Shown here: positions 671 through 64,000 of the stretch, piece by piece
Position numbering within the stretch: the stretch's first letter is position 1
Layout of the letters: the number at the start of each line of letters is the position of its first letter
Assembly: GCF_025698545.1 (NCBI RefSeq)
Contig: NC_068567.1
Span: 59,401,371-59,465,370 of the forward strand
DNA: 64,000 nucleotides
DNA from: Gossypium raimondii
Lineage: Eukaryota > Streptophyta > Magnoliopsida > Malvales > Malvaceae
Reading direction: 5' to 3'
The notes under the pieces: generated by a model
What the model was told of the DNA's origin: nothing
The model's input: the letters and a program-made list of their open reading frames with translations, nothing else
Databases searched by the model: none
Made by a program: the position numbers and the translations under genes

Positions 671-706
671 GTCAACATGGGAGATAATGCGCTTCAGCGC
701 ACTCGA
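671..706 (-). repeat. SINE fragment, family 1 (box B region only)
   Basis: This short piece contains 'gataatgcgcttcagcgc' followed by 'actcgaaccca'. It matches the middle of the copy at 365-493 in the same orientation. The tRNA-like head and the tail are absent, so it is a truncated copy or a remnant of a local duplication. Confidence 0.45.
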
Positions 707-10622: not shown

Positions 10623-10875
10623 AATACTTGGGTTTGGATTGGGTTTAGGTGAATAGTGGGCCTATTTATATATTATAATTTTATTTATTAATTTTTCGGT
10701 TAAACCGAAAAAATTCTGTTAACCGACCGGTTTCGAACCTAATTAACCGTTAACCGAAAAATTAAAAAATAATTAACCGACTCCCGATCGAAAAAAATCG
10801 ATTAACCGACCGATTAACCGAATTCGATCAGTTAACCGAATTTTTTCGGTTTTACCCGAATTTTGCACACCCCTA
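10290..10875. mobile_element. hAT-type MITE, complete, with 8-bp target duplication
   Basis: The terminal inverted repeats are TAGGGGTGT and ACACCCCTA. The flanking 8-mers ATGGAAAT (10282-10289) and ATGTAAAT (10876-10883) differ at one base. TAGGGGTG-type ends with an 8-bp duplication mark the hAT superfamily. The body consists of many 'ttaaccgaatt'/'ttcggttaa' repeats in both orientations and has no coding capacity. A truncated copy lies at 19628-19984 inside duplicated block B. Confidence 0.75.
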
Positions 10876-19984: not shown

Positions 19985-21330
19985 GTACTCGATTGCCAAG
20001 TCGTAGTCTTTCAGTAGCTCTATCCAACATCATTGGCGTAGATTTTAATCCTTCTGTGTCATCAAGTACTTTAAACTCTTATGGTTTGAGAACACGCGAC
20101 ACTTCTCCCAATAGAGATAATATCTCTATATTTTTAGTGCTAGCACCACAACTGCTAGTTCTAAGTCACGTATTGGATAGTTCTTCTCATACTGCTTGAG
20201 TTGGCGAGATACATATGCCACAACCTTCCCTTTTTTCATGAACACACATCTTAGCCCATTTAGGGATGCATCAGTAAACAATGTACTCCACGCCAGACTC
20301 TGTCTAAGCTAAAATTGGAGCCTCTGTTAGAACTGCTTTCAGCTTGTCAAAGCTCCTCTAACACATTTCTATCCACTCAAAATTTTCTTTCTTTTTTAAC
20401 AGTCGCGTGAGAGGTGTCACCAACATGGCAAACCCTTTTAGAAATTTCCTGTAGTAACCCGCAAATCCCATGTAACTACGTAGCTCAGTGACATTTCTTT
20501 GCAGATTCTAATCGAGCACAGCTTTGATTTTATTAGGGTCTACTTTGATGCCTTCTGCAGAGATGACGTGACCTAGAAAATTGACTTCTCTCAGCCAAAA
20601 TTCGCAATTAATGATTTTGGCATACAACTTGTTCTCTTGCAGAGTTTTTAGCACAATCTTTAGGTGTTCTTCATGATCTGTCATGCTTTTAAAGTAGAAT
20701 AAAATATCATCTATAAAGATAACTACAAAACAGTCCAAGGCTGGAAGACCCTATTCATCAGATCCATGAATATTGTTGGTGCATTCGTTAATCCAAATGG
20801 TATTACTAAGAACTCGTAATGTCCATAGTGTGAGCGAAACACGATTTTTGGAACATCATCACCTTTAATCTTTACTTGGTAATAGCCAGACCGTAAGTCA
20901 ATTTTGGAGAAAATTGTAGCTCCACTTAACTGGTCAAACAAGTCTTCTATCCGAGGTAGTGAGACTTGTTCTTCACAATCACTTTGTTCATTTGACGGTT
21001 CCCATCCTTCTTTTTTACGAACAAGATTGGTGCACCTTAAGGTGAAACACTAGGTCGTATAAATCTTTTGTCCGGAAGATCTTGTAGCTAGTTCTTTAAC
21101 TCTTTCAACTCTAATGACGCCATCCTGTATTAGGCACAAGATATGGGTGCAGTACCAGGCGCTACCTCAATCAAAAACCCTATCTCTCTGTCTAGTGGCA
21201 CGCTTGGGAGTTCTTTCGAAAACACATCAGAAAAATCCTTCACAATCGGAACTTGGTTGATGTCCTTCCTAGACTCAGTGGAATCTATAATATACGCCAA
21301 GTAGGCATCTACGACTTTAACTATTAATCA
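19985..21330 (-). mobile_element. Ty3/gypsy pol fragment (Tekay/Del-like), broken
   Basis: The minus strand encodes recognisable chromovirus reverse transcriptase motifs such as '[11 protein letters not shown]', '[14 protein letters not shown]' and 'FIDDIL'. These are followed by the connection region ('[12 protein letters not shown]') and RNase H-like sequence towards 20000. The fragment is broken in several places and lacks gag and integrase. Its right edge joins a partial LTR of the family seen solo at 4814-7831. It is a fossil. Confidence 0.85.
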
Positions 21331-22441
21331 CATATGTCCATAATATAATATCCATAAGGATTAAAACATAATTACACCATATGAACTTACTTGGCAATGA
21401 CTAATCCGCAATTTTTCTTTTTCTACGAATATCCTTCGATTGGTTTAAATCCCAATCTAAATAATAATTTAATTCAATTATCAATTCTAAACATCATTTA
21501 ACAGCATACTATAGCTATATATCAGTTTAATTTCATTTTTTAGATATTCCTTCAAGTTTTGCATTTTATTCAATTTAGTCCCTAAAATCGAATTTGCCAT
21601 AACTTTCAAATTTGAGTTTCGATTTCGAAACCGATCTCAATCTCATCCTTATATAGCTCTCTAATATCGAAAATTACATATATTTAACCTTAATTTGAAA
21701 ATATTTTCACTTTAATCCCTATGTTCAAAACTAACAACTTTCACTTTACAGATTAGTCCCTTTTCAGATCTAAGCTCAAAATCTATCAGTTTAGTACCAA
21801 AATTTTCAAGATTCAACAATGGAAGCTTTTATAAACTTTAAAATTTTTGCAAAATAGTCCCTAGGTTAGCTAAATCAAGCTTCTGGGATCTCAAAAACAT
21901 AAAAATTACAAAAAAAAGACTTGAAATCACTTACCAATTTGAAGAACAAAGCTTGAAAAATTAAAGAACCTTTCTTTCTCTCTTGGACGGTAATGGAGAT
22001 GAAAATAGATGGAAGATGATATTTTTTTTTTGTTTTAATTTAACTTATAAAGCTTAGTAAAATTGTAAATATTAAGATCTTTCAGTTTAATCTTAATTAA
22101 TCTATTATTAATCATGTTTAACTCTTTTAATATGCATGACAACATCATCATCCACCAAATTTACTAAACATTGGTCTAATTGTTTAATTAATCCCTTGAC
22201 AACTTAAAATCTATAGCGATTAACATTTATGACTTTTACGATTTAATCTTTGTACCTTAATTAACTATTTATTCAAATAAATAATTGTATCAAAATTCAA
22301 TATAATATTAAAATAGTCTCATAAATATTAAATAATAATATTAATGACTCGATTATCGAAAAACGAAATTTTAAAACCATTATTTTCGATACCACTGAAA
22401 AATAGACTGTTACACGAATAAAATTTTAAATCGATATTTCA
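21331..22441 (-). mobile_element. Partial LTR of the same gypsy family plus shared flank
   Basis: Bases 21331-22412 match 6724-7831 of the solo LTR, with scattered changes and one internal gap. The match continues 29 bases beyond the LTR end, through 22441. An identical outer flank means the two LTRs descend from one insertion that was later duplicated with its surroundings. The inner part of this LTR is missing where it meets pol. Confidence 0.7.
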
Positions 22442-22474
22442 AGCAAGATCAAACTTGAACAAATATAAAATATG

Positions 22475-43446: not shown

Positions 43447-44333
43447 ACCGGAGAGCAGAAACTTTGGTCAGTCTAGATGTTGAATGTAACCATTTTAGGA
43501 AGTGAATCAGAAGATGACTTCATTTCTCACCGAGGTCCGAAGCATGCGTGTGCTTCTGTGGTAAGCAACACTGAAATGTTTTTACCAAAGCCACACAATT
43601 TTTGCTACAACTCACTTCGGAGTAGGGGAAGAAACAAATACACAGTCGAAAAACACCAGATACAATCTGAGGGATACTGTACACTAAGGTTGATCATTGA
43701 CTAAGAAAGTTTGCTTCCTTGTTGCTACAGATGGTTTGTTGTATTATGGAGTTCTCTCTTTACTGTAAAATGAAAGGCATTCTCATTTTTATCCCTTTTC
43801 CTTATTTTCACCCTCAACCCTGAATCTGTCTCAGTCCATATATGGACCTGCTTTAATGTACATGTACCAGGACAATTGTCTTTGGTGCAACAAATCCCAA
43901 AGGACACTATGATCTTGATACTTCAATTTACAGAACCAGTTTCTCATCTTCCTTAAATGTTTCTCTTATTTATATATATACTTATTGTTCTTAAACTTAA
44001 CTGAACCTAGTTGTCTCTGTCGATATGGCACTCACTGGTTCCTTGCTAAGCAGGTTTGGTATTGTCCTAGTCCGCTCAGCTGCAAAGAACCCTGAAAGGG
44101 ATGCAGTTGTGTCATAGCGCACATAATATAAAATGCAGCAAGAAAATGGTTATTAGAAGCATATTAAAACTTCGATAGCCTGCTTTATGGATTTCTATTG
44201 ATCATTACACACCTGAAAACATTAGACAGATTTCAAACTAAAGTAAGGAAGAACCATGGGAACCATACAAAAAAACTATTGTCAAATCTAGTTTCACAAG
44301 CTTGTCAATAGATGCTTCTTTGCATTATGAATC
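43447..44333. other. LIMR 3' flank and start of the RLP 3'-flank module
   Basis: The first half is the probable LIMR 3' untranslated region. From about 44140 it resembles the module found downstream of each RLP copy (also near 45740, 50110, 50900, 58460, 62100 and 62890), with 'ctagtttcacaagcttgtca' and 'gcttctttgcattat'. No gene is present. Confidence 0.45.
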
Positions 44334-44414
44334 CAAGGCTTAACTCGGTTTATGCAGTCATCTCTTAAAAGTGGCATCCAGCAGATTTAGAGTTTGAATC
44401 TCAACATTTGCATA
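44334..44414 (+). repeat. tRNA-like SINE copy, family 2
   Basis: It starts 'ccaaggcttaactcgg' (box A-like) and has 'gagtttgaatctcaac' (box B-like), ending 'atttgcatac'. It is the same element as at 45848-45926 and 51145-51231. Here about 105 extra bases separate it from the RLP coding end. Confidence 0.5.
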
Positions 44415-44519
44415 CACTTCCATTTTCTTCAAGTAGTGGTCTCCTTTGTACAAAAAACAAAATATGCTTTGCACTACCAAATACACAATTTTGGATGCAG
44501 CAATTCCTGTTTCAGATAT

Positions 44520-45530
44520 GATTCTCATCCTTTGGGAAGAACCCAGCCTGATTTGAAGCAAAAGAAAACAGTGAGCAGAAAACCAATTGCAGCTCCAATA
44601 CCAAAGTTCCAATCCGAAATCTTTATTCTTTTACCAGGGGACACAAGTGGAGAAATCTATTTTGTTTGACATGGTGCCAATAGTCTAGGACAGAGAGCCT
44701 CGTTCCCTTCAAAGCCTGCTTCAGGGAATGTCATGAATTGACCTTCTGAAGGTATCTCCCCGTAAAGCCTATTGTATGATACATTAAACACAGACAAAAA
44801 GCTGAGATGTACCAGAGAATGAGGTGTATCACCAGAGATATTGTTAGGAGACAAACCCAATACTTCCAAGCTTATCATCCCTGATATACTATCTGGAATG
44901 CTTCTTGAAAGGTTGTTTCTTCCAAACTCAACATGAAGGTTCTTCAACTTCCCAAAGCTTGGCCAGATTGGACCTGTAAACTTGTTAAACCAATAGTTGG
45001 CGGGAAGCTCCATACATCATTGTATGCCAAGCGAGGCTTACTTTGCTCTTTACTTTTTACCAGTGAGATGCATTCGGTATCTCTCCGGAAAAGGAATTGT
45101 TAGATAAGTCCAAGTAAAAGAGATATTCGAACTTGCCCATCCATGAAGGAATGGAACCTTCCAGCAAATTCCATGACAGATCCAACAATTGCAACATCTT
45201 AGAACTACTCAACCAAATTGGAAGAGAACCTCTCTGGTGACAAAATGTAGAAGTGCCTTAGCAGATTCACGTTGCTAGGCATTTCTTCCTGGTAAAAGTC
45301 CAAACCAAAGACCAATGTAGCTCCAAGTTTTTTTGTGTGAAAGATGAAGCTTTGTCAAGCTCGGGCAAGAGGATAGACTACCAGGAACTGGTCCCTGAAA
45401 ATTGTTAGAACCAAGACGAAGCAAGGTGACTCAGATCATTGCAGAACAATTTATTCTGATGGGACCGTCCAGACTGTTGCTGTGCAGATGAATCCTCAAA
45501 AGTGAAGCAGAATTCACCAAAGTCAATACA
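44520..45530 (-). pseudogene. RLP copy A: PSKR-like receptor-like protein, 3' half only, decayed
   Basis: The intact stretch 44657-45013 reads the C-terminal LRRs ('FTGPIWPSFGKLKNLHVEFG', 'NVSYNRLYGEIPSEGQFMTF') and the capping 'EALCPRLLAPCQ'. After a premature stop the same frame continues 'GIGAAIGFLLTVFFCFKSGW', the membrane span. Upstream to about 45530 further LRR sequence is recognisable but riddled with stops and frame changes, and it ends in AT-rich DNA, so the N-terminal half is gone. It is the most diverged member of the cluster. Confidence 0.85.
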
Positions 45531-45847
45531 TGACTTCAAATTTTTTTTCATTCATAATCAAATAACATTATTTTTCTACCAAAATCTTTAAAAAATAAGT
45601 ATTTTATAAAATAAATTATGTTCTATAAAAATAAATGAATCTCTTTTTACCTATTAAAATCCAAAAATCCTTAATCCATTTATTTTCTTCTATCACTCGT
45701 TACTTTTCTCTCAAAATTTTCTTTTAGGTTTGTTTACATTAGTAAAGACTTAAAACTCAAGCAAGAAAGAACCATGGGAATACCAGAGGAGTTGCATAAA
45801 AAACATTTTCTCAAGCTTGTTAGACATGCTTGTTTACATTATGAACC

Positions 45848-45926
45848 CAAGGATTAACACAATTGGTACATGCAGTCACCTTTAAAAAAATGACATCCGG
45901 TAGAACAAATCTCAGCATCTGCATAC
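45848..45926 (+). repeat. tRNA-like SINE copy, family 2, overlapping the RLP B stop codon
   Basis: It reads 'aaggattaacacaattggta' and ends 'ctcagcatctgcatac'. The RLP B stop codon (45912-45914) and its last three codons lie inside the end of this copy, on the other strand. Confidence 0.5.
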
Positions 45927-47972
45927 CCTTCCTTTAGGAATAACCCAGCCTGATTTGAAGCAAAAGAAGACAGTGAGAAGAAAACCAATTGCTGCACCAA
46001 TTCCAAAGTTCCAATCCATAATCTTCATCTTTTTACCAGGGAACACAACTGGAGGAATCTGTTTTCTTTGACATGGTGCGACTAGTCTAGGACAGAGAGC
46101 CTGGTTCCCATCAAAGCTTGAATCAGGGAACGTCATGAATTGACCTCCTGAAGGTGTATCCCCGTAAAGTCTATTGTATGATACATTGAATACAGACAAA
46201 AAGCTGAGATGTACCAGAGAATAAGGTATTTCACCGGAGATTGTTACAAGACAAATCTAATACTTCCAAGCTTGTCATCCCTGAGATACTATCTGGAATG
46301 CTTCCTGAAAGGTTGTTCTCTTCCAAATTCAATACATGAAGGTTCTTCAAGTTCCCAAAGCTTGGCCAGATTGGTCCAGTAAACTTGTTATGACTTAAAT
46401 CAATAGTCGGTGGGAAGGTGCATATATTGTCATATACCAAGTGTGGCCTACCTTGCTCTTTCCTTTTTACGAGAGAGATGTGTTCACATGATTCTTTCAG
46501 TAGAGCAGTTTTGTGGACAAGGTTTTCTAGTCCGGTTAAACTTTCTGGTATCTCCCCGGAAAAGGAATTGTTAGACAAGTCCAAGTAAAAGAGATATTTG
46601 AACTTGCCTATCCAAGAAGGGAACCTCCCAATGAATTCCATGACAGATCCAGCAATTGCAACATTTTAGAACTACTCAACCAAATTGGAAGAGAACCTCT
46701 CAGGTGACAAAATGGAATAATAAGTGCCGTAAGACTCGTGAATTGCAGATTTACATTGCTAGGCATTTCTTCCAGGTAAAAGTTCAAACCAAGGTCCAAT
46801 ATAGTCAAATTTTTGCAGTGTTGTAGTATCTCAAGTGCTGTGGATATATTATTGATGCTGGTGTTTCCGAGCGAGAGGAATTCTAGTGCGTGCAGATTTC
46901 TAAACTTGAATGGAACTACACCACCGAGTTTGGTGCGTGCAAGATTCAGAGCTCTCAAGCTCTGGAAAGAGGATAGACTAGCAGGAACTGGCCCCTGGAA
47001 ATTGTTAGAAGCGAGATCAAGTGAGGTGACTTGGGCCATTGCAGAACACTTTATTCTGATCGGACCGTCAAGACTGTTGTTGTGCAGATCAATCCTCAAA
47101 AGTGAAGTCGAATTCACCAATGAAGCAGGCAATAATCCAGTTAATCTATTTGAGCTGGCAGAGAAGGATTCTAGCTTTCTCAGTCTCCCAAAAACGTCTG
47201 GAAGACTTCCACTAAAGTCATTCAAGGAGATATCCATTTCAACAAGGTTAGAAAGGTTCCCAATTCCGTAACTCAGAGGCCCAGAAAACTGATTTTGTTG
47301 AAGGTGCAGAACTCGGAGATGTTGTAGCCGGAACAAATTCTCAGGGAAAGTTCCTGACAGACCATTTCCATTAAGGAAAACATACTGCAATGAAGTGCAA
47401 TTCTCCAAATATATCAAACCTTCTCCGAAGAAGTTATGTGCAAGATCAAGATATTGGATATGAGATGAACTTGTGCAGAATCGCATGCTAATGAAGCTAG
47501 AGAAATAATTCTTTGAGAGATCCAAGTACTTAATTGATGGTAAATGAATTGCAGAAGGAAGTGGACCGACGAGATAATTGTTACTCAAGTCAAGGACTTC
47601 TAGGTTCCGAAAATGAAACAAGTTGGCAGGAATTTTACCATGGAGAGAATTAAGCGAGAGGTTCAGGATTCTGAGTTGCTCCAATCCAACCAAGCTCTCA
47701 CATATTGTGCCTGTGAGTCTTTTGTTCCCAAGCTCTAACCCGACCAATCTTCCATATATATCAGAGGAATTGTCACAAGTGATGCCTGTAAATGAGCAGC
47801 AATTGGAGCTGCTCCAGTTCCACCCGCCAATATCCGGTTCTAAACATTTGGCGAAACCCTTGAGGGCCGTTAAGTCATTCATATGGCATGCTGGTTCTTG
47901 AGATCCCTGTATCATCTGCTGAAGCATGACAGCCAACAAAATGAAAACCAAAGACATAGTTGGGATGCCCAT
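45912..47972 (-). pseudogene. RLP copy B: PSKR/PSY1R-type receptor-like protein without kinase, two frameshifts
   Basis: The start at 47972 gives a signal peptide 'MSLVFILLAVMLQQMIQG', the LRR N-cap 'CHMNDLTALKGFAKCLEP' with the 'NCCSFTGITC' pair, then about 20 extracellular LRRs in a 454-residue frame to 46608. The frame changes there: 'GGTTCCCTTCTTGG' lacks one CTTC compared with copy C (GGTTCCCTTCCTTCTTGG), a 4-bp loss in a short tandem repeat. The next frame (46231-46641) holds the island-like 'LVKRKEQGRPHLVYDN' and 'FPPTIDLSHNKFTGPI'. A second, 2-bp loss follows near 46245. The last frame (45912-46199) encodes the C-cap, one membrane span and about nine cytoplasmic residues. The ectodomain plan is that of phytosulfokine/PSY1 receptors, but no kinase follows. 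Arabidopsis RLP3/RFO2 is a known kinase-less relative of PSY1R. Confidence 0.88.
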
Positions 47973-49203
47973 GAAGGAGCTGTTACTGTTTTTTTACTGT
48001 GTACTGATGAAGGTATGGTATCTATTATTATTTAGTTAATGTTGCTACAGGGCTTAACAATATAAAAGTATAGAGGAAAGAGAATGGTTGCTGAGGAGGT
48101 TGATTCACCAGTCGAGGCTGAGAGTTGGAGATTATGGAGAATAACTATGAAGAGAGTTTGAAGGTTGAGGGCTGGAAGAATGTTAACAGAGTTTAGGCTT
48201 ACTGTTCTTGAAGGGTTCCCACTTCATTATGGAATCGTAAGAGAGATATCTTTGATAGGACAAGGATATCTATGATAGGATAAATCATTTTATTCATGTT
48301 TCCAATTAAGATTAAACCATTCATTGTTCGGTTAGTCTACTAAGAGGGTGATCTCACATGTGACCACCGGACTTGCTTGTGGTAAGTTTACTGTTTAAGC
48401 GTCTTCTAAGTTTGCCACATGTTTGTCATGGATGGGGCTACAACTCTGACCTTGCATTGACTGAATCAACTTATGTTTTCTTTTATTTTGTGGGGGCTTT
48501 CCCACGTAATGTTTTGAGGAGGCAAAGCTCCATGACTTTTCAGAGCTCGGACGATCCATCGCTGTTGCTTCTTTCTTACAAATGTAACAGGATGATGTTG
48601 ATGATGATGATGTTACCCTCTATCTGTATTTGTTATTTAGGTACTCTCAACGTATAATTGACTTCAGAGAGAAGATACTGCTTTCACTGGAGTAATATAT
48701 TGCTATATTGATGTGGTTTTCTACTGCCAAGCATAAAACGTTAGCTCTTGAAAAGTCTAAATAAGGTTAGAGGATAAGATTCCAAAGATGAAATCAGGTT
48801 GCAGTGACACGCAAAGCAGAAGTTTTAATTAGGCTTCACAGCAATACCCTAATTGATGTTGATGGCAATGGGATATTAACATGATTTACCGTATTTTTAC
48901 CAAAGACTTGTTACTACTATCTTTATAGCATCTATCATCTGGGTTCAGTTCTTAGTAAATTAGAAGTTGGGATAATCTATTACTGTTTTTGTTTGATTAA
49001 TTTTAATCTATGGTCATTAATATTACTTATTCTACCACCCACCCACCATTGACAAAACGCATATGATGATCGCAGCCTGCATGTTCTCAGTAAGTTGTCA
49101 GGAGGAAGAAGAAGAAAGAAAAAAATTTATGGTGAGCTATTTTCTGGAAAATTGAATTAAGGCAGATTCAAACGGTATAAAATTAATATTTCCGACCGCC
49201 AAA
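47973..49203. other. RLP B upstream region and spacer
   Basis: The 5' flank of RLP B, repeated almost base for base at 59960-61194. It includes a GATGAT run at about 48592-48612. Open frames here are short and have no domain. A promoter is expected in the first few hundred bases but no element could be assigned firmly. Confidence 0.35.
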
Positions 49204-49689
49204 TTCAAACTAAAATGTAAAGAAATTGAAATTAAGGCAAACCTGCAATTGCTTTTTACATGACGAATCTCCAGCAGACAAAGAGAACTTGATGATGGGC
49301 AACAAAACCCCACCTGCTCTAGTAGTGGTACTACGCATCTCCGGCTCAGCCCGTAAGACAACCCCAACGTGCTTTTGCCCAAACGTTCGACGAATTGAGT
49401 AGCTTACGGCAGCATTCTGGTGATGATGGAAGTAGTGAGACCTATAAAAGCCCAAACTCGGACAAGTAAAGGGCTTAAGATAAAAAGATGGCAAGGAGTT
49501 GCCAGGCTTGTGGGGTTACTTCGACATCCAATTCCAATCACCAAAGCTGGTTTTGGTGCTTTTGATGTTGCAGACATGCGGTGCTTATGCTCAGAAATTG
49601 ACATCACCGCCAGATTAGATGCGGTAACGGTTATTTTGTGCATTGAATCTTCCATGACTATCTCACCCAAATTTAAAAGGATTTGTTAG
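49204..49689. other. Unrecognised open-frame region, copy 1
   Basis: Overlapping open frames exist on both strands: minus 49210-49494 (94 residues, opening 'MPSFYLKPFTCPSLGFYRSH') and 49404-49670, plus 49420-49689. The composition is less AT-rich than its surroundings. A 'gcag|gtttgc' donor-like site lies at about 49250 on the minus strand. I recognise no domain. It may be an exon of an unknown or decayed gene. The second copy at 61195-61680 keeps the same frames, but the copies are too similar for that to count as evidence of coding. Confidence 0.25.
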
Positions 49690-50099
49690 TAATTTCAAAA
49701 ACACTGCTGAATCTTGGTATGCCTTTGGAGGCTTGTACCTCATGCTTGTTCCTACTTTATTATTCTAATGCGGGGGACGAGAAACTTGAGTTTCAATATC
49801 TTTTTCATTTTGCTGTCATGGTATACAAGGCTTACTTCCTGTACCTTTGCAGAAAAATATGGTCAGTTGTTTCTCCATTATTTTAACACGGTGCAAAGCT
49901 TAAGCTATGTCTTAAATCCTTTCGTATGTAAAAGAGGTTCCACACATTTTGTTACTTATTATTTTGCAGGAGTATAAATTGTACATATGAAAGTCTGATA
50001 GTTGGGTATGATCATTTGGCAGAGTTCAAAAATACCTTGGTTGATGCAATAGGAAAGTTTTTTCTTCGACTTGCAGGCCAACTGAAGTTGAAGGCTTGA

Positions 50100-50449
50100 A
50101 GCTGTAAAAGTTCCAGGCAGTGGCTGTCAAGGTAAATATATTACCTCTCTTTATAAAGTTTCTAAATTAGAAGCGTACTAGAACTTTAGTAGCCAGCTTT
50201 ACAAGCTTTCATTGATCAATAAACTCCTCGAAACATTAGTAAAGACTTAAAACTAAAACAAGAAAGAACCATGGGAATAGCAGAGGAGTTGCATAAAAAA
50301 AGATTGCCAAATCTAGTTTCTCAAGCTTGTCAATAGATATGCAATGCTTCTTTGCATTATGAACCCAAGAATTAGTTCGGTTGGTACATTCAAATCACCT
50401 TTTAAAAACAGCATCCAAAATATTTAGAGTTCGAATCTCAATATCATGA
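50100..50449. repeat. Orphan RLP 3'-flank module with SINE family 2 copy (50364-50449)
   Basis: The 'gttccaggcag' to 'cttgtcaatag' stretch matches the 3' flank of RLP C (50890-51145), and the SINE follows at 50364. Here no LRR coding sequence comes next; unrelated AT-rich DNA does. It is probably the remnant of a deleted RLP copy. The counterpart in the duplicate is 62090-62437. Confidence 0.55.
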
Positions 50450-51144
50450 CTTTTTTGTAAAGTTACAGGTATTTAAATTTGTGTACTTTTCTTTGCTTTC
50501 CCATGCCCTTTGCCATGTACTTCATTGCAAATCTTGCATGGAGCCCCAAAACCTAACATACACCATTGCCATGCATTAATTGAGAAAGCAAATATATAAT
50601 ATATATACAAGTTGGGCTATGATATTTGAGAAAATATGGACTTAAAGCAAGCCCAAAATTAAAATTGGGCTAAAAGCTAGTGTCTAAAGCCCAAATGAAA
50701 AGTACGAAAAACAGGCTCACGATAGATCGAATTTTGATATATTTTAGACTGGAACTAACTTAAATATATAAACTAGTTTGCCCCTTGAAGAGTAAAAAGA
50801 CGATTATCTGACTGAGAATCGTGAAAGCCATAAGATAAAAGAAAATAGTGAAATTCTGTATACCAAGCTCTTGGCACTTGAGTGAAAGTCATAAGTTCCA
50901 GGCAGTACTGGCTGTTAAGGTAAATATATTACCTCTCTTTATAAAGTTTATAAATTAGAAGCATATTAGAACTTTAATAGCCTGCTTTACAGGCTTTCAT
51001 TGATTAATAAACTCCTTGAAACATTAGTAAAGACTTAAAACTAAGCAAGAAAGGACCATGGGATTGCAGAGGAGTTGCAGAAAAAAGATTTTCAAATCTA
51101 GTTTCTCAAGCTTGTCAATAAATATGCTTCTTTGCATTATTAGC
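50450..51144. other. Spacer and RLP C 3'-flank module
   Basis: Bases 50450-50885 show no gene. From about 50890 the RLP 3'-flank module begins again ('gttccaggcagtactggctg'). Repeated at 62438-63132. Confidence 0.4.
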
Positions 51145-51231
51145 CCAAGGCTTATCTCAATTGGTACATGCAATCACCCTTAAAAAATGGCATCCGGCAG
51201 ATATTACAGTTCAAATCTCAGTATCTGCATA
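51145..51231 (+). repeat. tRNA-like SINE copy, family 2, overlapping the RLP C stop codon
   Basis: It begins 'caaggcttatctcaattggt' (box A-like) and has 'cagttcaaatctcag' (box B-like), ending 'tatctgcata'. The stop codon of RLP C (51218-51220) and the codons for its last Cys-Arg-Tyr are read from this element in antisense. Confidence 0.55.
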
Positions 51232-52665
51232 CCCTTCCTTTAGGAAAAACCCAGCCTGATTTGAAGCAAAAGAAGACAGTGAGAAGAAAACCAGTTGCAG
51301 CTCCAATTCCAAAGTTCCAATCCACAATCTTCATCTTTTTACCAGGGGACACAAGTGGAGGAATCTGTTTTCTTTGACATGGTGCCAGTAGTCTAGGGCA
51401 AAGAGCCTGGTTCCCGTCAAAGCTTGATTCAGGAAATGTCATGAATTGACCTCCTGAGGGTGTATCCCCGTAAAGCCTATTGTATGATACGTTGAATACA
51501 GATAAAAAGCTGAGACGTGCTAGAGAATGAGGTATTTCGCCAGAGAGATTGTTACGAGACAAATCCAATACTTCCAAGCTTGTCATCCCTGATATACTCT
51601 CTGGAATGCTTCCTGAAAGGTTGTTCTCTTCCAAACACAAATCATGAAGGTTCTTCAAGTTCCCAAAACTTGGCCAGATTGGTCCACTAAACATGTTATG
51701 ACTTAAATCAATACTCGGCGGGAAGCTCCTTAAATTATTGTATGCCAAACGTGGCCTACCTTGCTCTTTCCTTTTTACCAGTGTGAAGTGTTCAGATGAT
51801 TCTTTCAGTAGAGCAGTTTTGTGGACAAGGTTTTCTAGTCCGGTTAAACTTTCCGGTATCTCCCCGGAAAAGGAATTGTTAGACAAGTCCAAGTAAAAGA
51901 GATATTCGAACTTGCCAATCCAAGAAGGAAGGGAACCTCCCAATGAATTCCATGACAGATCCAGCAATTGCAACATTTTAGAACTACTCAACCCAGGGAT
52001 TTAAATTGCGGTCGCGGTCGCGTTTTCGGTCGCGTCACGTTTGTCGCGGTCGCGGACATAACGAACGCTATTGCGGTCACTGCGGGTATCGCGGTCGTGA
52101 ATTTTTTTCAAATTCGCACAACTTACTGTAAAACATAGTAATTATAATTATAATTATAAAAAGTCACTTTTAATGATTTTTAGAGTGTTTTCTAACACTT
52201 ATGAACCTTTATTAATATGACATGAGACTTCAATATTTCTTGACAGCTTTGAAGATAGTGAAAATATAAATATGCTGCAAAAGGAAAAAAGGAATAGATA
52301 AATTAATGAATAGATTCTCATTAATTATTCCTATTTCCTACCACTTATTCTCATCTCATTCTACTTTCATATATAATTTAACATGCTTCGATTCTTCATT
52401 ATCTTTTCATAAAATATACTTCATTCATTTATCTAAAGATATATATTATTTTAAATGTTTTAATATCATCAAAATTAAGAACAATAACAAAAGATTTCTT
52501 TAAAAAAAAATACCTTACAAATAATGATAGTGGCACGATTTAGTTTTCACCAATTAGTGGAATGACGAGGAAGATCAAATCCTTCACCTTCACTTTGGGA
52601 GCGTTCTTGACTTGATTCTCTTGGCCTTTGTCCAAAAATATATCCAAAAAAAAAACATTTTCACC

Positions 52666-55600
52666 TTAGTTTTCATTCAATTGATATGGAGGATATATTT
52701 GAGGAGGAGGATACATGAAAGGTGGAGGTGGGTGATACATTGGTGGAGGAGGATACATTTGAGGCTGGTATGGCACGCCATAATTAGGAAATGGTGGATA
52801 ATAACCATATGGTTGTGGATAACCATGTGAAGGTTGTTCTGGTGGATAAAAACCTTGAGTGCTAGTAGATGAATCACTATACCCAAGGTTACTAGAACTC
52901 GATCTCCTACCACTACCAGATGAAGAGCCTATAGAAGTATGCTTCTTGCCTTTTCCCTTTGATGGAGCTCTAGGTTCACTTCTATCTCTCCTAGGTTCAG
53001 GAAACATATTTCCATCAAACTCTGATCTGTCACGAAAATGTCCACCAGTGGTACCACCCCCATATTCTCCTCCATACTGACTAGAAGACCTAATTTCACC
53101 TCTATCACCACTATATCCGTCATCCTCATCAATTGGACTTAAACCACCACCATCGGGTCCATCGCCACTCTGACTTGGAGTTGACCTAGAACTTGAATGA
53201 GACAAAATTTGTTGTTGCGATTGATCAACATCCATTTCATCATCAGAGGTATCCACAGGCAACACACCGGCATTTTCACCATCTAACAATGGATTCTCTT
53301 TCTCATGAAGCCATTCTGATAGTGGATCAACATCTTCAAAGATATAATCAAGGCTGATAGGATTAAAACTAGCATTTATATCATCAGTGCTCATTCTTTG
53401 TTGATGTCTCATCTTAAGCCTCATATTATAATAGGTAAACACTAGTTTTTCAAGTTTTTTATACTTTAACCTATTTCTTGCCTTGGTGTGAATATAACTA
53501 AATGTGCTCCAATTTCGTTCGCAATTTGATCTTTGAAGTTGTTTGACTAAGCACTTTAATTGCTAATTTTGTAATTCGGAACACATGTGCCGTATATCAT
53601 CCACCACTCAATTTGCATAATATTATTTAAATTTCAAAATAACTTTAAAATGTACAATATAATTAAATAATATAAATTAAATTAAATAATTTAATTAACT
53701 GCTTTACCGGATTCATTTGCTTCCAAGCTTTTTGTGCTTGTGGAGTACCGAATGTCTCATGTTTATCTCTAAATAGTAACAATCTGCATAAATAAAAGAT
53801 AGAGTAAAAATAAAAATAAAATTCTATTTCAAATTATTTAACTAAGTTACAAATAATAGTAGTTGAATCTAACTTGATTAACCATCCGACTTGAGTATCC
53901 ATAGAAGGTTCTAATCTTTCAATTCTTGATCGTGTACCTTCTAATGTTTCTATTAGTACATTCTCGAATGCTCCACCCCAAATTGAAATTGAGGTTGAGA
54001 AAATAACCTAAGTATAATTTATAAGAATATCATCAAATAATAATAATCTAAAGCTTAAAATAATAAAATATAAAAATAGTTCTTAATTATATGAAACATT
54101 TTATCTTACCAGCTGAATGCAAGTCGGAATGCATAAAATTCCATCTATTGTCAATAATCTTTTCATACTCTATGAAATATCGACAATTTTGTTGAATTGC
54201 TCGTTTAGCCCTATCAACGTCATAAATAAAGCCCATCGTTGGTTTTTCATCGCTCTCCACAAGTCTCAATACTCTTACTAAGGGCTCATAAACTTTTATG
54301 AGGTCATTGGCTTTTTTCCAAAAACCTTTTCCCAAAACAATTTTTTTGGCTTCATAAGCAGGCCCTGACTTTTGCTTTCCCCATTTTGATTCTTTAAATT
54401 CCTATATATTCATAAGAAAAATTTTAAAATAATATAATTTAAATTATTTGGAACTAATAAAATCACTAAAGGTTACTATATTTAAGTAATTATATTAACT
54501 AATTATAAAATACTGACCTTTGAATTAAACATTTCTCTCAAACCTTGCTTTTGTCTTGTTATCTCTTCAAGTTGAATGAAATGAGTTGCAAATCGAGTAA
54601 GAGCAGGTCGAAGTATTTGTTTCCCTGGTGTATACTTCTTCATCAAATCAACAGTCCAAATGTGATTGTATATAAAGCAAGTCACTTTCTTTTCCTCATC
54701 TAACACTTTTGCTACACTGGGCTTTTTCCCAATATCTTCAAGGCATAAATCTAAACAGTGAGCTGCACATGAGGTCCAATATAGATGTTGTCTTTTCAAC
54801 ATTAATTTTTTCCAGCAGACTTTCATTCTTTGCCTCATTATCGATCACTATTTGGACAATGTAATTTTCTCCAATTTCTTCTACAACTGAATCTAACAAA
54901 CGGTAGTAGAATTCAGCATCTCTACTACGGACACTTGAGACATCTACCGATTTCCAAAAAATGGTTCCTTTACTGCAATAAACAAGAAAATTAATGATGT
55001 GCATTTGATTCAAACTGTTGGTCCAACCATCACACATTAGAGTTGCACCCAATTCTTTCCAATAAGTCTTTAGTACATTTACCCAATCATGAACTCGTTG
55101 ATACTCTGACTCCAAATACACATCTGAAACCTCATAAGGTGTTGGGAGCTTTACACCTTGTCCAATTTCTGTTGCCACTTGAATTAAGTTATACAACCAT
55201 GGAGAGCTTGCTAATTGAAAAGGAAGTCTTTCATATATTATAAATTTAGATACCGCTTCACCTATCTTCCTTCGAAAACTCTTTAAAAAAGAGTCATTGA
55301 CCTTTGGTTGCTTTGAACTTTTGCTTCTAACCAATTCAGGTATAGCTCCCCTTAAGGTAAACTCAGACTCACCTGGAATAGATTTACTTGTTCTTTCTCT
55401 ATTATGTTCTCTAGCTGATCCATGAGAAGATCGCCTTCTTTATAAATGTTATCCCAACCACCAATTGCTTCGTCAATTCTTCCCTTCTATGCCACTCGTG
55501 TTGTGATTGGATACTTTCTCGAGTTGCTTGCCTTATAGCAGAAACCTCATCAATGAATCCCTCGTGCTCATCCTCATCTTCTGTTAATTGAGATAAGAAT

Positions 55601-55995
55601 TCATCTTTTCTCCTCTTTTGTCTATTTTCTTTGTGTTGCTTTCTTTTAGTACATTCATCATACTTTCTCTAATGAAACACATTAATAAAATAAAATAATT
55701 CACACTTTATATTATTATTAATTATATATAATCTTTATTGATAAATTTACAATAACATTTAATAATAATAATAAAGTATCACATACCAATAACATTAGGG
55801 CATGGTGCAACATTGCTGGTTTTATGAGCAATGTGCTCTTTAAATCGTGTTATTCCTCCTTTCACAACTTTACCACAAAGTTTACAGACGATACTTCCTC
55901 TCGCATTTGGCAATCGGAGTTCCAAAGTGCCAACCTATATCATTACTTGGTGCACCCTCCAATCCTTTAGTCGGGAACTCTTCACGTGGTGGCAT
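52666..55995 (-). pseudogene. hAT transposase gene (BED-DUF659-hAT), broken
   Basis: The start is at 55995 ('MPPREEFPTKGLEG'). The first exon ends at a GT donor near 55787. Further coding stretches are about 55334-55670 (charged, with 'EDEDEHEGFIDEV'), 54738-55334 (DUF659), 54503-54838 and 54087-54335 (core; 'IRQQN'-type DDE region degraded) and 52666-53530 (dimerisation and tail). The last 250 residues are acidic, Ser/Gly-rich and then a Pro-Tyr-Met tract with 'YGYYPPFPNYGVPYQPQ', which suggests a disordered tail. Frame changes occur in the BED exon and in the linker exon. It would normally bind the TIR region and catalyse cut-and-paste. Confidence 0.85.
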
Positions 55996-56159
55996 GCTTT
56001 ATTTTATTTATATAAGAAACATAAAATTATATTTAGAAATATAAGCAACTCATTACTTATATTATCAACAATATAATACCAAAAAAGTAAACAAAATTTA
56101 AAGCTAAAGTAAAGACCTAATATTATAGAAATAAATAAATAAATATTGTGTAAAACAAT

Positions 56160-56203
<44 letters not shown>

Positions 56204-56262
56204 CATGATGATGATGATGATGATGATGATGATGGTATTAATAATAATAATAACAATAATAA
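56160..56262. repeat. Trinucleotide array (AAT)n then (ATG)n
   Basis: About fifteen AAT units switch to 'catgatgatg' with about ten ATG units and then back to AAT/AAC units. It lies in the 5' non-coding part of the hAT element. Confidence 0.85.
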
Positions 56263-56449
56263 AAATCTTAAAATTAAAAATTATATGAAAGGATATACTA
56301 TATAGATAAATAAAATTATATAATAAAACAAATGTATTTAAAATATTTAGGTAAATAAATATGAAAAGAAATATAATTGAAATAATAATGCAAAACTAAT
56401 TAAATTTTAATAATATGGTAATAATAACAAGTAAATAAATATTAAAATA

Positions 56450-57590
56450 AAATAAAGGAAAAATAATAATAGTAATAGTAATATTAAATTAATTAATTTA
56501 ATAATAAAATAGCAAAAATAACAAAAACGGGACTAAATCGAACTTAAAACATAAATTTGCGGCAAATCTGAAATAAATAAAAAGAAAAAGGACCAAATTG
56601 AATGCACAAATAACAAAAATGGATCAAATGGGAAATAATCCCCATCCTTCAAAATGCACAGCTTCAAGGTGGACCAAATTGAAATACGAAATAAATTATA
56701 GGACAAAATTAAAAAAGAAATAAGCTTGACTGTAAATAATAAAAAATAGGAAGGGCTAAAAGCGTAATTAACCCTTCCGTTAAAAACACACGGATCCTAG
56801 GAAACGGGTCGGGTAAGTGCGCGGGTTAGGCCAAAACGGCGTCGTTTTGGTGCCAGAGTGGCCTGCCCAAAACGGCGTCGTTTTGAAGGCCTATTTAAAT
56901 AAAAAAAATTTCAGAATCTTCATTTCAGCCATTCTTCAAATAATTTTTTTTCCTTTTTTCTCTCAATTCTCTTTTTTCTCAGCCGTTGCCCAGAATCCGG
57001 CCATCGGCCACTGTGGCAGCCGCCGCTCACCGGCGACGGCGCCGTCGTGCACGGTGGTCGGAAATCGTCGAAAATATTTTAAACCCCCTTTTTTGTGTAG
57101 AATATAGATCTAGGGATAAAAATCTCAAAAAATCACTCTATGTTGCAGATTCAAGACATGCAAGTACTTTACTTACTGGGTTAGTTTTCTACTTACTTGA
57201 TCTATTGCTTTGCTTGCTGCCTGTGCCCTGTGGCTATGTTTTTTGCCTTGCCGAAATATGGAGAATGAAGAAATATATTTTGCCTTTTCGTTTGCTTGTG
57301 ATTCTGTGAAATGTGAGTTTGTGAGTCTGTGACTTACTGACTTGTATTGTGATTTGTGAGTGAGTTTTGATTTTTTAATCGACTTTCAGTCTTTTACTTT
57401 ACTTTACTTTACTTTGTTTTGATTGAAAGTTTGAAACTTGACCGATTTTGCAGGTTGGAAGGGAATATATTCCCTTGCCTTTTGTTTTATTATCAAGTAC
57501 ATTGATTCAGTCTTTCTTCTCACTTTTCACTATTCATTCAATATTTCATTCACCAGAATCACCATCCATCTACAGCACTTGATTTTTTTT
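56450..57590. mobile_element. LTR-like segment in the hAT 5' leader, family uncertain
   Basis: Phrases such as 'gggactaaatcgaactta', 'aaggaccaaattgaatg' and the double 'caaaacggcgtcgttttg' at about 56832 and 56868, followed by 'ggcctatttaaata', recall the promoter half of long cotton Ty3/gypsy LTRs and parallel 1084-2438. No LTR ends or target duplication were found. It may be an old partial LTR nested in the hAT or a shared promoter-like region. It is a fossil without coding capacity. Confidence 0.35.
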
Positions 57591-58353
57591 TTAATTTATG
57601 GAAACGGAGAATAACGGGAATAGCGGCCCGTTATTGTCGCAATTGTCCGTTATCCGTTAAATTGCGGCCGCTATCCACCGTTATCGGTGTGAATCCGCTT
57701 CCCTCCGTTATTTTCAGCAATAGCGGTTTCGGTCGGCGGCGCTACCACTATATAACGGCCGCTATTCTGAAAACGTTCCGTTATTTGAATCCCTGACTCA
57801 ACCAAATTGGAAGAGAACCTCTCAGGTGACAAAATGTAATAATAAGTGCCTTAAGACTTGTGAATTGCAGATTCACATTGCTAGGCATTTCTTCCTGGTA
57901 AAAGTTCAAACGAAGGACCAATATAGTCAAATTTTTGCAGTGTTGCAGTATCTCAAGTGCTGTGGATATATTATTGATGCTGGTCTTTCCAAGCGAGAGG
58001 AATTCCAGTGCGTGCAGATTTCTAAACTCGAATGGAACTACACTATCGAGTTTGTTGCGTGCAAGATCCAGAGCTCTCAAGCTCTGGCAAGAGGATAGAC
58101 TAGCAGGAACTGGCCCCTGGAAATTGTTAGAAGCGAGACGAAGTGAGGTGACTTGGGCCATTGCAGAACAATTTATTCTGATCGGACCGTCAAGACTGTT
58201 GTTGTGCAGATCAATCCTCAAAAGTGAAGCCGAATTCACCAATGAAGCAGGCAATGATCCAGTTAATCTATTTGAGCTGGCAGAGAAGGATTCTAGCTTT
58301 CTCAGTCTCCCAAAAACGTCTGGAAGACTTCCACTAAAGTCATTCAAGGAGAT

Positions 58354-58556
58354 AGGCGCCATTAAAAAAACATACCATTTTGGTAATTAATTTTTCTGAC
58401 ATCCTATTTCGGTATTTAATTTTTTTTTTTAATATTTGGGTGAAAAACCCACGAAAGTTCATGGGAATTGCAGAGGAGTTACAGAAAAAAGATTTTCAAA
58501 TCTAGTTTCTCAAGCTTGTCAATAAATATGCTTCTTTGCATTATTAGCCAAGAAGG
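58354..58556. other. Rearrangement junction between RLP C and RLP D
   Basis: Bases 58354-58450 are foreign to the cluster and begin 'attaaaaaaacatacca'. Bases 58452-58548 match the RLP 3'-flank module (as at 51046-51142) and then join, at about 58556, to mid-LRR sequence of RLP D. No SINE and no RLP C-terminus lie between, so a deletion or recombination fused a 3' flank to an LRR interior. Confidence 0.6.
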
Positions 58557-59959
58557 GATTGTTAGACAAGTCCAAGTAAAAGAGATATTTGAACTTGCCT
58601 ATCCAAGAAGGGAACCTCCCAATGAATTCCATGACAGATCCAGCAATTGCAACATTTTAGAACTACTCAACCAAATTGGAAGAGAACCTCTCAGGTGACA
58701 AAATGGAATAATAAGTGCCGTAAGACTCGTGAATTGCAGATTTACATTGCTAGGCATTTCTTCCAGGTAAAAGTTCAAACCAAGGTCCAATATAGTCAAA
58801 TTTTTGCAGTGTTGTAGTATCTCAAGTGCTGTGGATATATTATTGATGCTGGTGTTTCCGAGCGAGAGGAATTCTAGTGCGTGCAGATTTCTAAACTTGA
58901 ATGGAACTACACCACCGAGTTTGGTGCGTGCAAGATTCAGAGCTCTCAAGCTCTGGAAAGAGGATAGACTAGCAGGAACTGGCCCTGGAAATTGTTAGAA
59001 GCGAGATCAAGTGAGGTGACTTGGGCCATTGCAGAACACTTTATTCTGATCGGACCGTCAAGACTGTTGTTGTGCAGATCAATCCTCAAAAGTGAAGTCG
59101 AATTCACCAATGAAGCAGGCAATAATCCAGTTAATCTATTTGAGCTGGCAGAGAAGGATTCTAGCTTTCTCAGTCTCCCAAAAACGTCTGGAAGACTTCC
59201 ACTAAAGTCATTCAAGGAGATATCCATTTCAACAAGGTTAGAAAGGTTCCCAATTCCGTAACTCAGAGGCCCAGAAAACTGATTTTGTTGAAGGTGCAGA
59301 ACTCGGAGATGTTGTAGCGGAACAAATTCTCAGGAAAGTTCCTGACAGACCATTTCCATTAAGGAAAACATACTGCAATGAAGTGCAATTCTCCAAATAT
59401 ATCAAACCTTCTCCGAAGAAGTTATGTGCAAGATCAAGATATTGGATATGAGATGAACTTGTGCAGAATCGCATGCTAATGAAGCTAGAGAAATAATTCT
59501 TTGAGAGATCCAAGTACTTAATTGATGGTAAATGAATTGCAGAAGGAAGTGGACCGACGAGATAATTGTTACTCAAGTCAAGGACTTCTAGGTTCGAAAA
59601 TGAAACAAGTTGGCAGGAATTTTACCATGGAGAGAATTAAGCGAGAGGTTCAGGATTCTGAGTTGCTCCAATCCAACCAAGCTCTCACATATTGTGCCTG
59701 TGAGTCTTTTGTTCCCAAGCTCTAACCCGACCAATCTTCCATATATATCAGAGGAATTGTCACAAGTGATGCCTGTAAATGAGCAGCAATTGGAGCTGCT
59801 CCAGTTCCACCCGCCAATATCCGGTTCTAAACATTTGGCGAAACCCTTGAGGGCCGTTAAGTCATTCATATGGCATGCTGGTTCTTGAGATCCCTGTATC
59901 ATCTGCTGAAGCATGACAGCCAACAAAATGAAAACCAAAGACATAGTTGGGATGCCCAT
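58557..59959 (-). pseudogene. RLP copy D: duplicate of RLP B, 3'-truncated, extra frameshifts
   Basis: It matches 46567-47972 nearly base for base, from 'MGIPTMSLVFILL' at 59959 to the LRR ending 'NSLGGSLLG', and shares the 4-bp CTTC loss of copy B. Beyond 58557 the C-terminal LRRs, membrane span and tail are absent. Against copy B it has four further single-base losses, all in runs of C or G (near 58984, two near 59320-59335, and near 59595). These cut the frame into four pieces. Such run-length losses are also the usual error type of long-read consensus, so some may not be real. Confidence 0.88.
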
Positions 59960-62900
59960 GAAGGAGCTGTTACTGTTTTTTTACTGTGTACTGATGAAGG
60001 TATGGTATCTATTATTATTTAGTTAATGTTGCTACAGGGCTTAACAATATAAAAGTATAGAGGAAAGAGAATGGTTGCTGAGGAGGTTGATTCACCAGTC
60101 GAGGCTGAGAGTTGGAGATTATGGAGAATAACTATGAAGAGAGTTTGAAGGTTGAGGGCTGGAAGAATGTTAACAGAGTTTAGGCTTACTGTTCTTGAAG
60201 GGTTCCCACTTCATTATGGAATCGTAAGAGAGATATCTTTGATAGGACAAGGATATCTATGATAGGATAAATCATTTTATTCATGTTTCCAATTAAGATT
60301 AAACCATTCATTGTTCGGTTAGTCTACTAAGAGGGTGATCTCACATGTGACCACCGGACTTGCTTGTGGTAAGTTTACTGTTTAAGCGTCTTCTAAGTTT
60401 GCCACATGTTTGTCATGGATGGGGCTACAACTCTGACCTTGCATTGACTGAATCAACTTATGTTTTCTTTTATTTTGTGGGGGCTTTCCCACGTAATGTT
60501 TTGAGGAGGCAAAGCTCCATGACTTTTTCAGAGCTCGGACGATCCATCGCTGTTGCTTCTTTCTTACAAATGTAACAGGATGATGTTGATGATGATGATG
60601 TTACCCTCTATCTGTATTTGTTATTTAGGTACTCTCAACGTATAATTGACTTCAGAGAGAAGATACTGCTTTCACTGGAGTAATATATTGCTATATTGAT
60701 GTGGTTTTCTACTGCCAAGCATAAAACGTTAGCTCTTGAAAAGTCTAAATAAGGTTAGAGGATAAGATTCCAAAGATGAAATCAGGTTGCAGTGACACGC
60801 AAAGCAGAAGTTTTAATTAGGCTTCACAGCAATACCCTAATTGATGTTGATGGCAATGGGATATTAACATGATTTACCGTATTTTTACCAAAGACTTGTT
60901 ACTACTATCTTTATAGCATCTATCATCTGGGTTCAGTTCTTAGTAAATTAGAAGTTGGGATAATCTATTACTGTTTTTTGTTTGATTAATTTTTAATCTA
61001 TGGTCATTAATATTACTTATTCTACCACCCACCCACCATTGACAAAACGCATATGATGATCGCAGCCTGCATGTTCTCAGTAAGTTGTCAGGAGGAAGAA
61101 GAAGAAAGAAAAAAATTTATGGTGAGCTATTTTCTGGAAAATTGAATTAAGGCAGATTCAAACGGTATAAAATTAATATTTCCGACCGCCAAATTCAAAC
61201 TAAAAATGTAAAGAAATTGAAATTAAGGCAAACCTGCAATTGCTTTTTACATGACGAATCTCCAGCAGACAAAGAGAACTTGATGATGGGCAACAAAACC
61301 CCACCTGCTCTAGTAGTGGTACTACGCATCTCCGGCTCAGCCCGTAAGACAACCCCAACGTGCTTTTGCCCAAACGTTCGACGAATTGAGTAGCTTACGG
61401 CAGCATTCTGGTGATGATGGAAGTAGTGAGACCTATAAAAGCCCAAACTCGGACAAGTAAAGGGCTTAAGATAAAAAGATGGCAAGGAGTTGCCAGGCTT
61501 GTGGGGTTACTTCGACATCCAATTCCAATCACCAAAGCTGGTTTTGGTGCTTTTGATGTTGCAGACATGCGGTGCTTATGCTCAGAAATTGACATCACCG
61601 CCAGATTAGATGCGGTAACGGTTATTTTGTGCATTGAATCTTCCATGACTATCTCACCCAAATTTAAAAGGATTTGTTAGTAATTTCAAAAACACTGCTG
61701 AATCTTGGTATGCCTTTGGAGGCTTGTACCTCATGCTTGTTCCTACTTTATTATTCTAATGCGGGGACGAGAAACTTGAGTTTCAATATCTTTTCATTTT
61801 GCTGTCATGGTATACAAGGCTTACTTCCTGTACCTTTGCAGAAAAATATGGTCAGTTGTTTCTCCATTATTTTAACACGGTGCAAAGCTTAAGCTATGTC
61901 TTAAATCCTTTCGTATGTAAAAGAGGTTCCACACATTTTGTTACTTATTATTTTGCAGGAGTATAAATTGTACATATGAAAGTCTGATAGTTGGGTATGA
62001 TCATTTGGCAGAGTTCAAAAATACCTTGGTTGATGCAATAGGAAAGTTTTTTCTTCGACTTGCAGGCCAACTGAAGTTGAAGGCTTGAAGCTGTAAAAGT
62101 TCCAGGCAGTGGCTGTCAAGGTAAATATATTACCTCTCTTTATAAAGTTTCTAAATTAGAAGCGTACTAGAACTTTAGTAGCCAGCTTTACAAGCTTTCA
62201 TTGATCAATAAACTCCTCGAAACATTAGTAAAGACTTAAAACTAAAACAAGAAAGAACCATGGGAATAGCAGAGGAGTTGCATAAAAAAAGATTGCCAAA
62301 TCTAGTTTCTCAAGCTTGTCAATAGATATGCAATGCTTCTTTGCATTATGAACCCAAGAATTAGTTCGGTTGGTACATTCAAATCACCTTTTAAAAACAA
62401 AGATCCAAAATATTTAGAGTTGAATCTCAATATCATGACTTTTTGTAAAGTTACAGGTATTTAAATTTGTGTACTTTTCTTTGCTTTCCCATGCCCTTTG
62501 CCATGTACTTCATTGCAAATCTTGCATGGAGCCCCAAAACCTAACATACACCATTGCCATGCATTAATTGAGAAAGCAAATATATAATATATATACAAGT
62601 TGGGCTATGATATTTGAGAAAATATGGACTTAAAGCAAGCCCAAAATTAAAATTGGGCTAAAAGCTAGTGTCTAAAGCCCAAATGAAAAGTACGAAAAAC
62701 AGGCTCACGATAGATCGAATTTTGATATATTTTAGACTGGAACTAACTTAAATATATAAACTAGTTTGCCCCTTGAAGAGTAAAAAGACGATTATCTGAC
62801 TGAGAATCGTGAAAGCCATAAGATAAAAGAAAATAGTGAAATTCTGTATACCAAGCTCTTGGCACTTGAGTGAAAGTCATAAGTTCCAGGCAGTACTGGC

Positions 62901-63132
62901 TGTTAAGGTAAATATATTACCTCTCTTTATAAAGTTTATAAATTAGAAGCATATTAGAACTTTAATAGCCTGCTTTACAGGCTTTCATTGATTAATAAAC
63001 TCCTTGAAACATTAGTAAAGACTTAAAACTAAGCAAGAAAGGACCATGGGATTGCAGAGGAGTTGCAGAAAAAAGATTTTCAAATCTAGTTTCTCAAGCT
63101 TGTCAATAAATATGCTTCTTTGCATTATTAGC
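59960..63132. repeat. Second copy of the RLP B to RLP C spacer
   Basis: This matches 47973-51144 at near identity, with single-base run-length differences and a small change at 62398-62421 ('aaaaacaaagatcc' against 'aaaaacagcatcc', plus a lost base in 'gagttgaatctc'). It contains the second copy of the unrecognised open-frame region (61195-61680), the orphan 3'-flank module (62090-62437, with a SINE at 62354-62437) and the RLP 3' flank (from about 62880). No additional gene is present. Confidence 0.85.
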
Positions 63133-63220
63133 CCAAGGCTTATCTCAATTGGTACATGCAATCACCCTTAAAAAATGGCATCCGGCAGATATTACAGTTC
63201 AAATCTCAGTATCTGCATAC
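63133..63220 (+). repeat. tRNA-like SINE copy, family 2, overlapping the RLP E stop codon
   Basis: Identical in layout to 51145-51231. The RLP E stop codon (63206-63208) falls in its end in antisense. Confidence 0.5.
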
Positions 63221-63981
63221 CCTTCCTTTAGGAAAAACCCAGCCTGATTTGAAGCAAAAGAAGACAGTGAGAAGAAAACCAGTTGCAGCTCCAATTCCAA
63301 AGTTCCAATCCACAATCTTCATCTTTTTACCAGGGGACACAAGTGGAGGAATCTGTTTTCTTTGACATGGTGCCAGTAGTCTAGGGCAAAGAGCCTGGTT
63401 CCCGTCAAAGCTTGATTCAGGAAATGTCATGAATTGACCTCCTGAGGGTGTATCCCCGTAAAGCCTATTGTATGATACGTTGAATACAGATAAAAAGCTG
63501 AGACGTGCTAGAGAATGAGGTATTTCGCCAGAGAGATTGTTACGAGACAAATCCAATACTTCCAAGCTTGTCATCCCTGATATACTCTCTGGAATGCTTC
63601 CTGAAAGGTTGTTCTCTTCCAAACACAAATCATGAAGGTTCTTCAAGTTCCCAAAACTTGGCCAGATTGGTCCACTAAACATGTTATGACTTAAATCAAT
63701 ACTCGGCGGGAAGCTCCTTAAATTATTGTATGCCAAACGTGGCCTACCTTGCTCTTTCCTTTTTACCAGTGTGAAGTGTTCAGATGATTCTTTCAGTAGA
63801 GCAGTTTTGTGGACAAGGTTTTCTAGTCCGGTTAAACTTTCCGGTATCTCCCCGGAAAAGGAATTGTTAGACAAGTCCAAGTAAAAGAGATATTCGAACT
63901 TGCCAATCCAAGAAGGAAGGGAACCTCCCAATGAATTCCATGACAGATCCAGCAATTGCAACATTTTAGAACTACTCAACC
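63206..63981 (-). pseudogene. RLP copy E: duplicate of the RLP C 3' piece, cut by the same hAT insertion
   Basis: The 257-residue frame is the same as that at 51218-51991: C-terminal LRRs, island-like segment, C-cap, membrane span and short tail. It ends at ACTCAACC (63974-63981), where the hAT terminus CAGGGATT begins. Any upstream part lies beyond the window. The tract shows no frame damage of its own. Confidence 0.88.
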
Positions 63982-64000
63982 CAGGGATTTAAATTGCGGT
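63982..64000 (-). mobile_element. Start of a second copy of the hAT transposon
   Basis: The last 19 bases, CAGGGATTTAAATTGCGGT, are identical to the left end of the element at 51994 and sit at the same point of the RLP sequence. The duplication therefore includes the transposon; the rest lies outside the window. Confidence 0.85.

Follow-up and report, generated by a model that had tools for sequence, protein, structure and literature searches.

Two nearly identical sequences of about 12 kb stand end to end within a cluster of receptor-like genes in the Gossypium raimondii assembly, which raises the question of whether the second copy exists in the plant or only in the assembly. We analyzed a 64-kb window (C3:59401371-59465370) and numbered the contiguous downstream sequence, L013, onward from it; such continued positions are given as ext coordinates.

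Extent and content of the repeat unit

The preliminary description had reported that bases 46567-52012 reappear at 58558-64000, and self-comparison of the window confirmed this: aligned to 58553-64000, 46562-52012 shows 3 mismatches and 13 gaps (99.707% identity), a similarity far above chance level. The tandem arrangement of about 12 kb was confirmed as well, but the window end is not the end of the repeat, and a full unit of 11,988 bases is present twice. Unit A, mostly corrected text, occupies 46562-58549, and unit B occupies 58558-64000 in the window (match from 58553) and continues for 6,476 bases beyond it to ext 70476 (L013:6476, C3:59471846). Over the whole unit, BLAST counted 128 mismatches and 122 gap openings at 97.74% identity; the MAFFT alignment contains 171 columns with substitutions, as well as 80 deletions and 31 insertions. 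When the genome was searched (750.8 Mb, 281 contigs), the whole left part of the unit was found at two places only among the best 40 of 51 candidates, and the whole right part at these two places only among the best 30 of 2,567 candidates, which are so numerous because of a common transposon inside it; the remaining right-part matches listed were copies of this transposon or of the receptor stretch. There are no runs of N in the 64-kb window or in L013, and the junction between A and B is gapless. Elsewhere in the assembly, 5 of 20 sampled contigs (C9, C12, C20, C100 and C281) start with N runs of round length (500-3000), which may be either assembly gaps or withheld sequence.

Unit A begins inside a receptor gene that is spread over three overlapping open frames (45912-47993), partly before the unit and partly within it. 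The part inside A (46608-47993, minus strand) encodes LRRNT_2 and LRRs in an open frame of 461 residues, and its counterpart in B (58599-59980, minus strand) is broken into four overlapping frames. A transposon divides a second receptor-like gene into 51218-51993 and 57796-58386, both on the minus strand; the frame of its C-terminal half (51218-52000) extends a few bases into the transposon. Beyond the transposon, 57796-58354 is 96% identical to 46674-47232, also within unit A. The cluster comprises several such receptor-like gene pieces (44152-47994, and ext 72030-76419 in L013/L014) that are 74-97% identical to one another. The window also holds older direct repeats, 9413-10631 with 18746-19985 (95%) and 6723-7866 with 21330-22449 (92%), which differ by substitutions and indels. 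Just after unit B, receptor-paralogue sequence seems to be interrupted by an element of 1.5 kb (L013:6493-7986, ext 70493-71986), whose direct terminal repeats are 389 bases long and 93.8% identical.

The transposon (51994-57795, minus strand) has many relatives genome-wide and is flanked by perfect copies of an 8-bp target site duplication, ACTCAACC, at 51986-51993 and 57796-57803. Its ends are short inverted CAGGG repeats, with CAGGGATT on both strands, and a Pfam scan of one open frame (54738-55439) returned DUF659. The target duplication, the ends, the DUF659 frame and the many copies are shared with the hAT superfamily, to which we presume it belongs on these features rather than on a transposon library. 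The listed copies of the element mostly carry about 110-190 additional bases between positions 215 and 216 of the query, where the transposon of unit A seems to be internally deleted.

Kinds and placement of the differences between the copies

According to the preliminary description, homopolymer length accounts for almost all differences between the copies. This holds for the first 5.4 kb, where the MAFFT alignment has 16 events before 52012, mostly in run length, with one small cluster at 50409-50432; every example that the description had given (the cluster at 62399-62421 as well as 46992, 48985 and 49772) is present in the alignment. It does not hold for the whole unit. We merged neighbouring alignment events into 148 change loci and sorted them, in this order, as run-length, no more than two columns from a CAG/CTG of A, CCG/CGG, other CG, and other. 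The tabulation, of the kind that description had proposed, gave 53 run-length loci, 61 at CAG/CTG (CWG), 25 at CG motifs (14 CCG/CGG, 11 other CG) and 9 elsewhere, the run-length class being defined by an identical run-length-compressed sequence and so taking in a few within-run substitutions such as 46566. The alignment shows recurrent recodings: CTG becomes CG, CTTG or ACG, CAG becomes CG or CGA, and ACGG becomes GCGG. At five of the nine other loci (53611, 53925, 55464, 55474 and 55679), a CAG/CTG is present in B and absent from A; two more (53702, 53783) are B-supported and lie within a block of A errors, and the last two are a multi-base change at 57641 and an isolated substitution at 54522.

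A and B are identical between 50451 and 52015, beside the transposon, and dense differences start at 52015. Among the CAG/CTG sites of A, 3 of 156 are altered before 52012 vs 73 of 102 after it (Fisher p 3e-36), a step that coincides with the transposon. In the same right part, 7.9% of trinucleotides other than CHG/CG are touched, even with the neighbours of damaged CWG included. The errors are thus concentrated at motifs that can be methylated, as expected of methylation-linked nanopore error. Of the 72 CWG sites that A has in the transposon, 7 show deamination-like changes in B, 22 show substitutions of other kinds and 19 carry indels; indels affect 1, 3 and 2 of these sites in the transposon copies L039, L040 and L041, from which 1, 5 and 26 of the sites, respectively, are absent.

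The two related receptor stretches of B serve as a same-sequence control. In the one beyond the transposon (57796-58354 in A coordinates), 21 of 24 CAG/CTG sites are altered, compared with none of 22 in the other (46674-47232). Restricting the comparison to the 18 sites whose 9-base context is identical gives 15 of 18 and 0 of 18. Since the context is identical, sequence alone does not explain the contrast and base modification would, which is indirect evidence, obtained from the assembly rather than from a methylome, for dependence on modification. It is unlikely that the clean stretch of B was merely corrected, because a leftover run-length error lies in it (46992) and three more lie just beyond (47328, 47344 and 47607); all four are polarized against B.

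CHG methylation is common in plant transposons, and the CAG/CTG pattern fits nanopore miscalls at methylated CHG, where we infer both the platform and the methylation. The differences between A and B are almost certainly errors of nanopore type. The long-read error that had been suggested earlier is therefore strongly supported, with the addition of a class not noticed then, namely, errors at CAG/CTG, probably methylated. We also consider it somewhat probable that the uncorrected stretches of B form a readable record of methylation, with most CAG/CTG sites of the hAT-like element and of the adjoining receptor fragment scarred and the 96% identical neighbour clean. For bacteria, it is documented that nanopore consensus sequences contain errors at methylated CCWGG and in homopolymers (Wick et al. 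2019, PMC6591954). Compared with the excerpted text of that source, both error classes recur here, and CCWGG likewise contains a methylated CWG. The present case differs in that the setting is a plant-type receptor cluster, that CAG/CTG in general is affected within a transposon, and that one sequence is read clean in one place and wrong in another. Among the papers listed in our literature searches, we found no description of CHG-linked nanopore errors in plant assemblies, which does not prove that none has been published.

Block-wise distribution of errors in the two copies

Two sets of outgroups indicate which copy is wrong. Paralogues within the cluster cover 29 differences and favour A at 24, B at none and neither at 5. 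At each of the 4 differences located within 46575-47990, the paralogue matches A, from which it follows that the frameshifts of B in this stretch are sequencing errors; the gene part of B that is split into four frames (58599-59980) contains the run-length differences at A positions 46992, 47328, 47344 and 47607. The preliminary description had left undecided whether the extra frameshifts in this receptor gene (its RLP D) are real; they are not, and should not be annotated as such. Between ordinary receptor paralogues, the differences are substitutions and gaps are few. By comparison, an alignment of the last receptor stretch of B to its paralogue opens 13 gaps over 560 columns; measured against 46674-47232, 57796-58354 of A has 22 substitutions and no gaps, and its copy in B has 49 substitutions and 13 gaps. 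Outside the unit the text appears clean, the terminal repeat pair after B differing by 24 substitutions with no gap.

Three other transposon copies cover 105 loci (52229-57790), supporting A at 55, B at 16, both at 7 and none at 27. The loci that support B are clustered, with 8 in 53566-53992 and 6 in 55464-56001; only 52243 and 57628 are isolated. We also applied an internal rule, by which the longer run, or the version with more CAG/CTG, is taken as right; it polarized 126 of the 148 loci and left 22 without polarity. By this rule there are 96 errors in B and 30 in A, falling into 17 polarity runs, and as few as 17 runs occurred in 0 of 20,000 shuffles. Outgroups and internal polarity together delimit two blocks in which A is wrong and B is right (53566-54217 and 55433-56080). 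In addition, A is shorter at four run-length changes in 48536-49211, a stretch with no outgroup, where the direction is inferred. As the assembly reads, A and B each hold uncorrected errors, in separate blocks. Since the outgroups show B to be mostly wrong and A to be wrong in tight blocks, both copies probably predate polishing. A gap fill of B alone after polishing was rejected, because A is erroneous in two blocks where the outgroups match B.

Origin of the second copy

We favour, with a probability of roughly 0.6, the reading that the second copy is a homotype false duplication, on the grounds of its non-homologous ends, near-zero divergence and mutually exclusive polishing. A and B would then be two nanopore-consensus versions of one 12-kb sequence, with errors in run length along its entire extent and with methylated CAG/CTG (and CG) sites miscalled in the hAT-like transposon and in the receptor fragment on its far side; the context dependence, the same-sequence control and the outgroup polarity are observed, and the platform and methylation are deduced from them. 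In layout or joining, overlapping stretches would have been placed end to end and not merged, so that the draft held both copies before correction with accurate reads. These reads may then have been assigned block-wise to either copy, so that each copy stayed wrong where its counterpart is right; the blocks themselves are seen, and polishing is their presumed cause. In the excerpted text of PMC9516828, homotype false duplications share with this case near-identical adjacent copies, error-like differences and no sign of a second haplotype. Here, too, the copies differ by sequencing errors and not by heterozygous variants, as far as the assembly text tells. The same excerpt names gaps between copies as one mark of false duplications; the present case differs in being gapless, and in being known from assembly text alone.

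Several observations count against an artefact. The usual gap between copies is absent from the window and L013. The first 5.4 kb of B are good consensus, with errors not rising towards its start, so B is unlike a poor contig end. Furthermore, a similar competition for polishing reads would arise if both of the identical copies were real. An assembly artefact, one of the two origins put forward in the preliminary description, is the more likely source, and the other, a real duplication, retains an appreciable though clearly smaller chance. It would be a very recent tandem duplication by non-homologous or microhomology end-joining, with basecalling and polishing errors laid over identical copies. 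The contiguous gapless text, the probable presence of both copies before polishing and the other, older duplicates in the cluster speak for it, as does a possible templated insertion at the junction.

This junction (58550-58557) reads TTAGCC / AAGAAGGG / ATTGTTAG. In 104 kb, the junction-spanning 11-mer CCAAGAAGGGA recurs only at 46612 in A and at 58603 in B, 55 bases on. Real end-joining sometimes leaves templated insertions, and the junction leans towards being an 8-base insertion templated by a site some 45 bases within the right breakpoint, hence a real event. Among random 8-mers drawn from the region, 2.6% had a match no farther than 60 bases from the breakpoints, and 0.04% when the CC..A flanks were required as well; for 524 purine-rich 8-mers the values were 7.4% and 2.9%; and of 1,789 variants that differ from the parental 8-mer by three substitutions at most, 27 matched near the breakpoints, 2 of them with the flanks. 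Alternatively, the junction may be read as the left side ...CCCAAG minus one C, followed by the right side AAGGAATTG with one substitution. On one paralogue, the left side of the junction matches 51057-51145 and the right side 51870-51993, which places the two sides about 700 bases apart in register, so the breakpoints do not lie at homologous positions of the flanking paralogues, and unequal crossing-over between receptor paralogues was rejected on this ground. That the unit ends are non-homologous despite 96% identical paralogues nearby also weighs against a real duplication. Moreover, double the reads would be expected to leave more blocks corrected in both copies, and the scarcity of plain substitutions means that the event must be very recent.

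This scarcity also makes it unlikely that a second haplotype is present. The preliminary description had also suggested a heterotype false duplication, in which two haplotypes of a single locus stand in tandem; this is the main cause of false duplication in the assemblies treated in the excerpted text of PMC9516828. Plain substitutions would then be expected, but only 9 of the 148 loci fall outside the run-length, CWG and CG classes. In the first 5.4 kb, free of CAG/CTG damage, substituted columns are confined to 50411 and 50412, plus 46566 at the junction, and beyond, where substitutions in CWG/CG context are indistinguishable from miscalls, only 54522 stands isolated; we regard this origin as very improbable. 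Least credible are real older paralogues with a fast-diverging right half, for example through deamination at methylated sites: changes at CAG/CTG and CG within the transposon would suit them, but the excess of indels over deamination-like changes in B, the few indels in the other transposon copies and the block-wise flips of polarity do not.

For near-identical copies in nanopore-based plant assemblies, these observations suggest a test, namely, whether the differences are located in run lengths and at CAG/CTG, and whether their polarity flips block-wise; where it is positive, the differences are uninformative on age and may report methylation. Copy number and broken frames in receptor-gene clusters are counted as biology, and one extra copy here is doubtful. 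If the reading of the scarred stretches is correct, the transposon-split receptor copy would be CHG-methylated and its neighbour would not, a difference readable from the assembly itself, and further nanopore plant assemblies could be mined for methylation likewise.
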